A stretch of DNA of 64,000 nt from Halopenitus malekzadehii (GTDB lineage Archaea > Halobacteriota > Halobacteria > Halobacteriales > Haloferacaceae). This document shows positions 17,036 through 22,592 of this stretch, piece by piece. Numbering within the stretch: the first letter of the stretch is position 1; each line of letters starts with the position of its first letter. Below the pieces are notes generated by a model that saw nothing but the letters and a program-made list of their open reading frames with translations, had not been told where the DNA came from and did not search any database. The stretch is from assembly GCF_900108505.1 (NCBI RefSeq), contig NZ_FNWU01000001.1, forward strand, positions 496,001 through 560,000, in the 5' to 3' direction. Both the position numbers and the translations under genes were made by a program.

Positions 17036-17671
17036 CTACGTCGATCGGAGTTCCGGCGGCGGGCCCGCATCGCCCAGCCGGATCCGGTCGTCTCGGAACG
17101 TCTGGACAGTCGCCGAAACCGCGACGCTCGCGACGGTGACGGCCGCGATCTGGAGATCGCCGACCTCGGTGAACAGGCCGACGTCGAGCCACGCCAGCCC
17201 GATCAGGAGCGCGTTCGCGACGCTGAGCCCGAGGTAGAACTGGCCCCAGGGGATGTCCCGCGGGTCGACGACCTCGAGATGGATGTCAGCGTTTCGGACC
17301 GCGTCACGCAGCGCCACCGTCCCGCGGTCCTCGTCGTACGCCACCAGCCCCCGATCATCCATCGACGAGAGGTGGCCCTGGTACAGCGAGATGTAGACGC
17401 GCTTGCGCTCCTGGGCGGTGAGCGCCTCGACGGGCTTGTCGTTCTCCCAGGCCGCCACCTGCTCGGCGAGATCGCGGACGTCCACACGCTCGTCGACCTG
17501 CTTGAGGTAGTGGATCGCATATCGGCGGCGCTTGTTCGAGAGAACGTCGTAGACGTCGTCCTGGGTGAGTCGATCGTCGCCCTGGCCGCCACCCGGAAGC
17601 GACGGTCCGACCCGGGACCGGATCGACGACCGGAGCGTGGTGAGAATCGACGACGGCGATGGGAGGTCCAT
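17036..17671 (-). CDS. DUF7344-like HTH protein with C-terminal membrane helices
   Basis: A 211-residue protein. Residues about 32-135 form a predicted winged-helix unit (LTQDDVYDVLSNKRRRYAIH start, SLYQGHLSSMDDRGLVAYD later), common in haloarchaeal proteins that combine an HTH with a membrane anchor. Two hydrophobic helices follow (FYLGLSVANALLIGLAWLDV and IAAVTVASVAVSATVQT). The ATG at 17671 follows a GGTTATACG box at 17688-17696; an earlier in-frame start at 17722 would lie in front of that promoter. It is divergent from the receiver protein 150 bases away. Function unknown; a membrane-tethered regulator is possible. Confidence 0.7.
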   Translation of the reverse strand: MDLPSPSSILTTLRSSIRSRVGPSLPGGGQGDDRLTQDDVYDVLSNKRRRYAIHYLKQVDERVDVRDLAEQVAAWENDKPVEALTAQERKRVYISLYQGHLSSMDDRGLVAYDEDRGTVALRDAVRNADIHLEVVDPRDIPWGQFYLGLSVANALLIGLAWLDVGLFTEVGDLQIAAVTVASVAVSATVQTFRDDRIRLGDAGPPPELRST

Positions 17672-17821
17672 AGCAGCGACGGTAGTCGTATAACCCGAAC
17701 GAGTTCCTGTAAGTGTTCCCATCCGTTCGGACGAGTGACGTTTCGGTCCTACAGACGGATCACGGTCCGAGAATAGTTGGATTTTTAATCATTCACTAAC
17801 AGGATCCGGTGACTCCCCGGA

Positions 17822-18181
17822 ATGGTCGACGTCCTCCTCGTGGAAGATACTGATATGCAGCGTGCCCTCCTGCATGGGTTTCTCATCCCCGAACACACGG
17901 TCGTCGGAGTCGCAACGACCGGGGAGGAGGCGATCCGCGAGGCGGAACGCACCGCCCCGGACGTGGTCGTGATGGACGTCGACCTGCCCGGCACCGACGG
18001 GATCGAGGCCACTCGGGCGATCAAACGGGCCAACCCTGACGTCGCGGTCGTGATGAGCACCGCGATGGTGATTGATGAGACCCGCGACCGCGCCACCGAC
18101 GCCGGGGCGGACGCCTACCTCACGAAGCCCTTCAGCAAGGACGACCTTCTCGCCACGATCGACGAGGTGTGTGGACGTTGA
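17822..18181 (+). CDS. stand-alone response regulator receiver domain (CheY-like)
   Basis: A 119-residue receiver with no output domain. The acidic pocket (E8, D9), phospho-acceptor D52 in VVMDVDLPG, the switch Thr in VVMSTAMV and the lysine in AYLTKPFSK are all present, so it should be phosphorylatable. No histidine kinase is nearby. The divergent DUF7344-like gene and downstream secreted DUF1102 locus are its neighbours. It could be a chemotaxis-like or general phosphorelay component; sequence alone does not separate these. Confidence 0.85.
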   Translation: MVDVLLVEDTDMQRALLHGFLIPEHTVVGVATTGEEAIREAERTAPDVVVMDVDLPGTDGIEATRAIKRANPDVAVVMSTAMVIDETRDRATDAGADAYLTKPFSKDDLLATIDEVCGR

Positions 18182-18257: not shown

Positions 18258-18305
18258 GTTAGGGCGCCCTAACTAGCCGATACCGGATCGTTAGGATGCT
18301 CTAAC
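18258..18305. promoter_or_regulatory. paired 16-bp palindromes (putative operators) upstream of the DUF1102 gene
   Basis: GTTAGGGCGCCCTAAC (18258-18273) is a perfect 16-bp palindrome. GTTAGGATGCTCTAAC (18290-18305) repeats it with the same outer half-sites GTTAG and CTAAC. Their starts are 32 bp apart, close to three helical turns, so two dimers would sit on the same DNA face. They lie about 35-85 bases before the TATA-like box of the secreted-protein gene, an activator or upstream-element position. Confidence 0.65.
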
Positions 18306-18340
18306 TACTGGGTAGGTCGGGCTTACAATGATGGTAGGGG

Positions 18341-18350
18341 TATATGTATG
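18341..18350 (+). promoter_or_regulatory. TATA-like box of the DUF1102 locus
   Basis: TATATGTATG follows a G-run in an otherwise GC-rich stretch. It would start transcription near 18370, leaving a leader of about 45-50 bases, unlike the leaderless genes around it. Confidence 0.5.
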
Positions 18351-18402
18351 CAATAGAGACGCCGGCCGGGGGCACCGACGCCCGCCGCGCTGACGCGTAC
18401 AC

Positions 18403-18408
18403 AAGGAG
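18403..18408 (+). promoter_or_regulatory. Shine-Dalgarno site of the DUF1102 gene
   Basis: AAGGAG lies nine bases before the ATG at 18418. A strong ribosome binding site is unusual in this window and agrees with a real 5' leader here. Confidence 0.6.
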
Positions 18409-18417
18409 ACAACAACT

Positions 18418-18948
18418 ATGGCACGACCCAAAGGAAAGCTGCTTGCGCTGGTATTGGTCTTCGGAGCGATCACGGTCGTCACGGCCACGGGCGCGTTCAC
18501 CACGGTGGAGGCGGAACGGACCGCCGAAGTGAACGTCACCGGTGACGCGAACGCGCTGCTTGGACTGACGGAGTACGAGGACAGTGATGGTGACACGCCG
18601 TACGCGAGGACTACCGACGATGGTCAGATCGTGATGGTTCTTGGTGAGAATATGAGTACTGGCCAAGGTGCAAGCGGTATCAACGCCAACGCGAATACCA
18701 CGATCCAGAACGCGATAAACGTTACAAATCAGGGGAACCAGGAGGTTGATGTAACCCTTAGCGTACAAGATTCAGAGGGTAACTCCGTTAACGGAATAAA
18801 TATGATCTGGTCGGACGGTTCCACTGGATCTAAAGCCCTCTCATCGGGAACTACTGAAACGTTCGGGATCGAGATTAACCTCCTCGGCGCTGCATCCGAC
18901 GGTGACCTGGATGATCTCACGATCGTGATCAACGCGAGCGCAAACTAG
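18418..18948 (+). CDS. secreted DUF1102-type protein
   Basis: A 176-residue exported protein. It has a signal peptide (MARPKGKLLALVLVFGAITV, then VTATGAF), directly followed by the TTVEAERTAEVNVTGDANALLGL segment characteristic of haloarchaeal DUF1102 proteins, then a beta-rich body with many Asn/Thr-Thr sites suited to N-glycosylation (NTT, NVT, NAS). There is no C-terminal anchor or PGF motif. The middle of the gene is less GC-rich than its neighbours. It has a strong SD site and paired palindromes upstream. DUF1102 proteins are of unknown role; a fibre or envelope component is a guess from secretion and beta content. Confidence 0.8.
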   Translation: MARPKGKLLALVLVFGAITVVTATGAFTTVEAERTAEVNVTGDANALLGLTEYEDSDGDTPYARTTDDGQIVMVLGENMSTGQGASGINANANTTIQNAINVTNQGNQEVDVTLSVQDSEGNSVNGINMIWSDGSTGSKALSSGTTETFGIEINLLGAASDGDLDDLTIVINASAN

Positions 18949-19060: not shown

Positions 19061-21244
19061 ATGAAACTCCGCTCCATCACCGCCGCGGTCGTCGTACTCT
19101 TCGCGCTCGGCGCGATAGTGGCGACCGGAGCGGTGTTGGGGACCGCGGGCTCGCCGACGGAGAATCTTTTTAACGGCGAGCCGGACGTCGAGTTCGGCGC
19201 CACCAACGGCACGAACGGGAACTACGTCGTGAGCGACGACGACGGCGAGCTCCGGATCGACCTCACGGATCCGGGCGTGAACGCGGAGGCGTACACGACC
19301 GTCGACCGGATCTTCTACCTGCACAACCAGGACACCCAGGAGGTCCTCGTGTGGGTAACCCACGACGGCGGCGAGCGGGTCTCGATGACGAGCGATGAGG
19401 GCGGAGCGCCGATCGAGGGCGAAGAGAACGCCGTCACGCTCGCGCCGGGCGAGCGCGTGGTCGTAAACGTCGGCCTGGACAGCCAGGGCATCGAGGAGGG
19501 CGACCGACTCCTCACGAGCGTGACGATCCACACCGGCTACGAGCTCGAGGAGGAGGTCGGCGACGGCAACGACACCGACGAGAACGCGTCCGACGGCGGA
19601 CCGGGGACGCCCGGATCCGGCGGCGGGGGCGGAGGCGGTGGCGGGGTCGGCGTACCGGGCGAGGAGACCCCCGAAACGACGCCCGACGAGGAGAGCGAAC
19701 AGGGCGAACCGGGTGAGGAAGGTGAACAGCCCGAGGGCGACGCGCCCGGCGAGGACGTGATCGACTCCGAGACGGGCGTGGAGGTCGAGTTCGAGGGTGA
19801 ACCGGACGAGGACGGAACCGCCGACGCGGACGGCGGCGAGGGATCCGATGCCGGGATCACGGTCCGTGAACTCTCGAACGAGGACCTCGACGCGATCGAC
19901 GCCACCGCCAGGGACGGCAACCCGCGAGCAGTGATCTCGACGGCGGAGGACGAGGACGGCGACGGCGTCAACGACGAGAGTGACGGCTCCGAGGGCGACG
20001 CGATCGACCTCGCGGAAGGCACCATCGTGACGACCGTCGGGGAACCGACCCGGCTCTCGGGCGAGCGGTCGACGATCAGCGTTTCGAGCGGGGTGACGGA
20101 GCAGGACCGGATCGTGCGCGCGGTGGACATCGAACCGCCCGAGAACCGCCGGAATCAGCCGGCCACGGTGCGGCTGCGCGTCGACCGCGACCGGTTCGGC
20201 GACGCCGACCCCTCGGGCGCCACGCTCGGCCACCGGACCGAGAACGGCTGGGAGCTGCTCGACACCACCGTGACGGAAACCAACGAGAACTACGTGGTCG
20301 TGTCGGCGCGCACGCGCAGCTTCTCTCCGTTCGCGGTCTTCGTCAACCCGGACGTCACCTACCAGTGGACGCTGCCGGACGGAACCACGCAGAGCGGCCG
20401 AGTGCTCGAGTACACCTTCGCGGAGCCGGGCCAGTACGATGTCGGACTCACCGTCCGCGACGCCCTCGGTCGCGAGAGTACGGCCACCCGGACGGTCATC
20501 GCCAACGACGTGCCGACCGCCGAGGTCTCCGCGGAGTACGACCGGGCGGCCGAGATGGCGACCCTCACCGCGGACGTCACGAACGAGGTCGGCGATGCCA
20601 CGGTGACCTGGACGTTCGCCGACGGCACCACGAAAACCGGCGAGACGATCACCCATCCCCTCGAACCCGGCGAGCACGTGGTGGACGTGCGCGTGGCCGA
20701 CGAGTACGGGGCCGCCACGGAGACCACCGAGCGGATCGCGGTCGCGACCGGCTGGTCGGTCGTCTCCGAGCTCTCGGCGCTGGGCATCGGCAGCACGATC
20801 CTCTGGCAGACGCTCCTGTCGCTGACCGCCCTCGGCCTCATCGTCGCCGCCTACCGCTACGTCCCGTGGGGACGCGCCGTCCCCGAGGGTCGCGGTCCCC
20901 GAATCACGACCTTTGAGGACCCGCGCGTTAGCCTTGAGACCAACCGCTTCGCGATCGGGTCGCTGTCGGTCATCGATCCACAGGTCGCGCTCGATACGGT
21001 CACCATCACGGTCGTCGACGGCGACGGTGACGAGGTCGTCCGCAAGCGCCTCGAGATCGTCGGCGACCGCGAGTACGAGACCACGGATGAGACGATCGTC
21101 GTCCCGCCGGGAACCGCGCTCGACTCCGACGAGAGCTACCGGATCCGGGTGACTGCTCGCAACGTGCGCGACCGGACCGGCACGCATAACGGGACCTCGG
21201 TACGGGTCGTCGAGGCCCTCACGAACCCGGTTCCGTCGGTCTGA
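19061..21244 (+). CDS. membrane-anchored surface protein: DUF1102-like head, linker, PKD repeats, TM, cytoplasmic tail
   Basis: A 727-residue protein with an N-terminal signal peptide (MKLRSITAAVVVLFALGAIV). Residues about 30-165 are a DUF1102-like beta domain (IFYLHNQDTQEVLVWV, APGERVVVNVGLDS). A Gly-rich then Glu/Pro-rich linker follows (about 175-250), then a beta region, and two PKD-like repeats (about 434-560; YTFAEPGQYDVGLTVRDALG, then TWTFADGTTKTGETITHPLEPG-like). One membrane helix (about 575-597, LLSLTALGLIVAAYRYV) precedes a soluble tail of about 125 residues with a beta-sandwich look. It follows the secreted DUF1102 gene by 112 bases. Probably the anchor partner of that protein; this is inferred from shared head domain and order. 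Confidence 0.75.
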   Translation: MKLRSITAAVVVLFALGAIVATGAVLGTAGSPTENLFNGEPDVEFGATNGTNGNYVVSDDDGELRIDLTDPGVNAEAYTTVDRIFYLHNQDTQEVLVWVTHDGGERVSMTSDEGGAPIEGEENAVTLAPGERVVVNVGLDSQGIEEGDRLLTSVTIHTGYELEEEVGDGNDTDENASDGGPGTPGSGGGGGGGGGVGVPGEETPETTPDEESEQGEPGEEGEQPEGDAPGEDVIDSETGVEVEFEGEPDEDGTADADGGEGSDAGITVRELSNEDLDAIDATARDGNPRAVISTAEDEDGDGVNDESDGSEGDAIDLAEGTIVTTVGEPTRLSGERSTISVSSGVTEQDRIVRAVDIEPPENRRNQPATVRLRVDRDRFGDADPSGATLGHRTENGWELLDTTVTETNENYVVVSARTRSFSPFAVFVNPDVTYQWTLPDGTTQSGRVLEYTFAEPGQYDVGLTVRDALGRESTATRTVIANDVPTAEVSAEYDRAAEMATLTADVTNEVGDATVTWTFADGTTKTGETITHPLEPGEHVVDVRVADEYGAATETTERIAVATGWSVVSELSALGIGSTILWQTLLSLTALGLIVAAYRYVPWGRAVPEGRGPRITTFEDPRVSLETNRFAIGSLSVIDPQVALDTVTITVVDGDGDEVVRKRLEIVGDREYETTDETIVVPPGTALDSDESYRIRVTARNVRDRTGTHNGTSVRVVEALTNPVPSV

Positions 21245-22440: not shown

Positions 22441-22592
22441 CGGTCGAACAGCGATATGCCGGTCGAACAGCGATATGCCGGTCGAACAGCGATATGCCGG
22501 TCGAACAGCGATATGCCGGTCGAACAGCGATATGCCGGTCGAACAGCGATATGCCGGTCGAACAGCAATATGCCGGTCGAACAGCAATATGC
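22441..22592. repeat. 19-bp tandem repeat, eight copies
   Basis: The unit CGGTCGAACAGCGATATGC is repeated eight times head to tail without spacers. Copies 1-6 are identical; copies 7 and 8 share one G-to-A change (AGCAATATGC). It fills most of the 210-base gap between two convergent genes. The period is not a multiple of three, the array is not coding, and the absence of unique spacers rules out a CRISPR array. Confidence 0.97.

Follow-up and report, generated by a model that had tools for sequence, protein, structure and literature searches.

Tafi-like pili are thought to serve adhesion. The operator consensus of DtxR/IdeR-type metal regulators contains a TTAGG...CCTAA inverted repeat. The sites of archaeal Lrp regulators occupy one face of the DNA at intervals of two or three helical turns (PMC2995911), and gas-vesicle promoters are activated only if the UAS lies near the BRE (PMC4390858). 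Tafi take their name from a twin-arginine motif (Galeva et al. 2025, cited in PMC12687288). Here we describe a locus of Halopenitus malekzadehii in which palindromic sites lie next to the core promoter of a gene for a tafi-like pilin. The locus lies within the 64-kb stretch of DNA analysed as a whole, referred to as the window, and its features are listed in Table 1. We estimate a probability of roughly 0.72, from sequence comparison, that two palindromes of this promoter, O1 and O2, belong to an array of three sites and are bound by dimers of the neighbouring DUF7344 protein.

Table 1. Features of the pilin locus, in window coordinates
Feature	Positions	Strand	Basis
DUF7344 winged-helix protein, proposed regulator	17036..17722	-	Pfam PF24035, 1e-30; two predicted TM helices
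Lone receiver domain (Response_reg)	17822..18181	+	Pfam PF00072, 1.4e-27; no DNA-binding domain
Operator O1 (putative)	18258..18273	.	Perfect 16-bp palindrome GTTAGGGCGCCCTAAC, by sequence inspection; register -65
Operator O2 (putative)	18290..18305	.	16-bp palindrome GTTAGGATGCTCTAAC; register -33
Operator O3 (putative)	18311..18326	.	Degenerate GGTAGGTCGGGCTTAC; register -12; register peak over eight lineages and null test
Core promoter TTACAATGATGGTAGGGGT, putative BRE/TATA region	18323..18341	+	Conserved in all aligned promoters; TSS inferred near 18352
Predicted 5'-leader stem-loop	18359..18398	+	Leader folding; significant in several genera, but not in Halopenitus taken by itself
Shine-Dalgarno AAGGAG	18403..18408	+	Sequence
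Tafi-like pilin	18418..18948	+	NCBIfam TafE below cut-off; 9p0a profile match; Foldseek 9p0a and 7ueg
TafF-like PKD-containing surface protein	19061..21244	+	NCBIfam TafF 4.4e-8, 33 of 420 bits, below cut-off; Pfam PKD

The gene behind the promoter

A first-pass annotation had described the gene as a secreted DUF1102 gene. This name suits 4 of 17 homologues, which match Pfam DUF1102 (PF06510), but the window protein is unmatched at E<=0.01, and both NCBIfam and structural comparison point to a Taf/tafi pilin instead. The NCBIfam TafE model is matched by all 17 homologues and scores 1.3e-13 with the window pilin, at 51 of 155 bits and hence below its cut-off. Homology to tafi pilins was found at the profile level, as the family profile hits the Natrinema tafi pilin of known structure, 9p0a, with an E of 5e-22. 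A Foldseek search with the predicted fold (model mean pLDDT 74) ranked 9p0a first, and 9p0a and the Pyrobaculum bundling pilin 7ueg were the only matches below 1e-3, both with modest TM-scores. The N-terminus of the pilin, MARPKGKLLALVLVFGAITVV, has no RR motif of a twin-arginine signal, and the equivalog cut-offs of NCBIfam TafA, TafC, TafE, and TafF are not reached at the window locus. By profile and predicted fold, the product is a tafi-like pilin and not tafi proper; we use "tafi-like" because the pilin has no twin-arginine motif.

The two copies in the home genome, one in the window and one at C26, are 88-98% identical in promoter, leader, signal peptide, and tafF, and only 40% identical in the mature pilin. 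The window copy shares 98% promoter identity with the G002:C4 copy, whose mature pilin matches the C26 one (90%). The mosaic that emerges when window positions 18559-18948 are compared with L046 (C26), L047, L048, and L049 suggests cassette exchange. Aside from these genes, a short tandem repeat at window positions 22456-22560 yields, in several frames, open reading frames containing the unit MPVEQRYAGRTAICRSNSD.

A phased array of three palindromes

The two palindromes reported by the first-pass annotation lie precisely at the positions it gave, share half-sites, and lie 32 bp apart from start to start; both sites are real, and the degenerate O3 had been overlooked. Scanning the window with up to one mismatch gave two matches against 0.21 expected, namely O1 and O2 themselves, and two matches were reached by 2 of 100 shuffles, a figure in which the spacing is not yet counted. 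The genome-wide search that the annotation proposed found exact GTTAGN6CTAAC at four sites in the 3.14-Mb home genome, against one for the reversed control. Two of the four belong to the window locus. The third belongs to the duplicated locus (C26:11661/11692) and has a 1-mismatch partner 31 bp away. The fourth (C26:354401, L002:1501-1516, G000), the one exact site outside pilin loci, carries the palindrome GTTAGACGCGTCTAAC in the start region or upstream of a UPF0016-type transporter gene. Its core differs; we rejected it as part of the same system on account of its missing pilin-promoter context and its merely partial conservation among congeners. It may be a separate metal-responsive site. 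Paired sites in the home genome are restricted to the window locus and its duplicate, so a wide regulon is rejected and the regulon once envisaged shrinks to these loci.

Alignment of the promoters of the homologous gene revealed a conserved core, TTACAAAGRGGGTAGGGGT, the first T of which was taken as register zero. Averaged over eight lineages, the match to TTAGN6CTAA is highest at precisely -12, -33, and -65, and these peaks exceed all 20,000 random-offset draws of a null test. The spacings of 21 and 32 bp correspond to two and three helical turns and place the sites on one DNA face, the arrangement of an Lrp-like phased operator array. Four imperfect copies in 32-bp steps occur in genome G007, which we take to be Haloquadratum walsbyi, and three phased copies in Haloquadratum J07HQW1. 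The pilin behind the latter (L132:4382-4849) has an in-frame TAG early in its mature part and may reflect a pseudogene or an assembly error. The 32-bp-phased pattern was matched in 4 of 391 Halobacteria genomes, each time at the homologous pilin gene; a comparable number of matches, at scattered places, came from the reversed-pattern control, so that the phased count alone is weak and the location is what counts. A promoter matrix built from seven lineages recovered promoters outside its build set (L060, L062, the second J07HQW2 copy, and the second G309 copy) at scores of 41-66, where shuffled sequence reached at most 16. A profile covering the entire promoter and built from sequence only matched 14 of 391 genomes under stricter filters, by which weak matches may be lost, and its matches outside training (G151, G361, and the second G359 copy) all lie before tafi-like pilins. 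Halobellus captivus and Halorarius have no good O1. Across genera the palindromic half-sites and the register are kept while the spacers diverge.

The two palindromes are no chance pair but the best two sites of the array. Upstream of homologous genes they are kept in other lineages, and their distribution in the genome is not random; either opposite outcome had been named as grounds for abandoning the idea. Their phasing, conservation, and distribution support the earlier view that a dimeric regulator acts on a surface-protein gene through same-face operators.

The core promoter resembles a TATA box only poorly. The array sites abut it, and O3 overlaps the core promoter with its putative BRE/TATA element TTACAA. 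Most leaders of the homologous genes fold into a stem at a nearly constant distance from the core promoter, with sequences that differ among genera; the fold z reaches -3.7 in Natronomonas and is not significant in Halopenitus. A strong Shine-Dalgarno site is present in Halopenitus and G017. The annotation was right about this site and about a real leader in the window. The layered control that it proposed gains partial support at the RNA level from the leader stems of most genera and the Shine-Dalgarno sites.

Candidate readers of the array

The annotation had named two neighbours as candidates, a DUF7344-like HTH protein and the lone receiver. The former belongs to DUF7344, with 106.4 bits against a PF24035 gathering score of 27.8. 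Its predicted model, of low confidence (mean pLDDT 65), contains a wHTH at about 54-138 with the recognition helix at 103-123, followed by TM-like helices at 159-178 and 189-211; a fold search with the HTH model found no significant relative. DUF7344 proteins often number several per haloarchaeal genome, and related HTH genes adjoin pilin genes across many haloarchaea. The class-A subclade is marked by the recognition helix YISLYQ[SG]H or a near variant of it and occurs in 13 of 391 genomes. The array accompanies it in 13/13 genomes against 1/378 others (Fisher 2e-23 by genome) and in 6/6 genera against 1/80 (Fisher 1.5e-8), p-values that overstate the association, as most of the genomes gave training promoters, the classes were drawn post hoc, and linkage contributes. 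In G361, the search for a class-A HTH came up empty; the array there is 1.2 kb away from the end of a contig.

HTH genes are mostly linked to the pilin, and co-inheritance can mimic pairing. Two observations provide evidence beyond linkage. First, the class-A array is kept where its HTH gene lies far off, at a distance of 372 kb in J07HQW2 and of about 10 kb in G151 and G304, and likewise at the C26 duplicate, where the sole DUF7344 gene nearby is a distant one and the cognate HTH gene is lacking. Second, a separate HTH subclade, known from Halocatena and g32 and having the helix TSLQQTHLPAL, pairs with another palindrome, CTTGA-N6-TCAAG, at register -23, which is in helical phase with the other registers. 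Among 341 genomes, the strict class-B pattern (TTGA-N6-TCAA type) was found only in two Halocatena genomes, in one of which two pilin genes on further contigs, remote from the HTH, carry it as well; the Halocatena relative L191 has no clear class-B site. Both operator classes go with PKGKL/PRGKL-type pilins. Other DUF7344 subclades adjoin pilins with twin-arginine-like N-termini (MQRRKFL), and inspection by eye indicated possible TTTC/GCAA repeats upstream of RR-type pilins at L136, L137, L142, and L143. With its subclade co-occurring with the array and a second subclade having its own palindrome, the DUF7344 candidate is strongly favoured, and the DUF7344 winged-helix protein next door is most likely the regulator of the array.

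The array could also be a true operator read by another dimeric regulator, e.g. of the DtxR/IdeR type, with DUF7344 merely travelling with the locus. The prevailing linkage of HTH genes to the pilin, the similar palindrome upstream of the UPF0016 gene, and the G361 array without a detected class-A HTH would all agree with this explanation. We nevertheless consider it unlikely, given that the paired sites of the home genome occur only at pilin loci and that the operator sequence varies with the HTH subclade, unlinked pilins included.

Control of the palindromes by the lone receiver, alone or with a partner, is improbable to a much higher degree. The receiver does adjoin the array in the Halopenitus copies, being duplicated with the pilin at C26, and related receivers occur near other pilin loci in Halobellus. 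It consists of a Rec domain only, however, and is absent beside the arrays of other genera, which makes this second candidate of the annotation an unlikely DNA binder. The position of the palindromes 77-125 nt past the receiver stop codon and the perfect inverted repeat of O1 might instead mean that the receiver transcript has an RNA hairpin or terminator as its 3' end; we rejected this scarcely credible reading, since arrays lack a preceding receiver in G017, Haloquadratum, Natronomonas, and L060, the spacing is locked to the core promoter, and no T-run follows. That the repeats are functionless products of shared ancestry or chance is just as hard to believe: the C26 pair does lie within a recent duplication and, because that segment is about 90% identical, is no independent evidence, so that the case rests on other genera, where half-sites and register outlast the diverged spacers, and chance is rejected by the shuffles and null draws together with register and conservation.

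Proposed mechanism and comparison with known systems

If DUF7344 reads the array, a dimer would bind each 4-N6-4 palindrome. Dimers on sites 21 and 32 bp apart would be aligned on one face, where cooperative binding is possible, and side-by-side contacts would extend a strong occupancy of O1 and O2 to the weak O3 on the BRE/TATA. We infer both the binding and the cooperativity. The two predicted TM helices suggest a seat in the membrane, from which the regulator might link pilin transcription to a cue from the envelope or from assembly. Activation through aid to TBP/TFB seems somewhat likelier than repression through BRE/TATA occlusion, given the weak TATA-like element and the sites directly adjoining the core promoter; the overlap of O3 with the TATA-like element leaves room for repression. 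The position of the array fits the placement, close to the BRE, of a UAS of the GvpE/Bat type.

More tentatively, and with the odds somewhat against so broad a statement, the DUF7344 family might consist of winged-helix proteins that are tethered to the membrane and regulate pilin promoters, with every subclade having its own 4-N6-4 palindrome (TTAG-N6-CTAA, TTGA-N6-TCAA, and perhaps others) in phased arrays on the core promoter and coupling pilin transcription to membrane events. The name DUF7344 was not found in the literature searched. If the assignment is true, this large uncharacterised haloarchaeal family would obtain a concrete function, and tafi-like pili a candidate promoter logic. 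The two subclades suggest a pairing of recognition helix and operator sequence, and the membrane anchor raises the question of whether control of pilin transcription originates at the envelope.

The locus resembles those of tafi and Pyrobaculum bundling pili in having a pilin homologous by profile and fold and a TafF-like partner gene, and it differs from tafi in that the pilin is without a twin-arginine motif and its TafE, TafA, and TafC scores stay under the cut-offs. As in DtxR/IdeR boxes, there is a TTAGG...CCTAA inverted repeat, but here 16-bp sites form phased arrays only at pilin promoters and not at metal genes, bar the one unrelated-looking UPF0016 site. The GvpE UAS of haloarchaeal gas-vesicle promoters (PMC4390858) is a two-part activator element that, like the array, is found close to the BRE; GvpE is bZIP-like and uses a single 20-nt UAS, whereas here several palindromes are phased and the last overlaps the TATA-like element. 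With archaeal Lrp-type operators (PMC2995911) the array shares dimer-sized imperfect palindromes that are located upstream of the BRE/TATA or close to it and follow one another on one face at two or three helical turns, the difference being that the candidate here is a DUF7344 protein with two TM helices instead of an Lrp protein.
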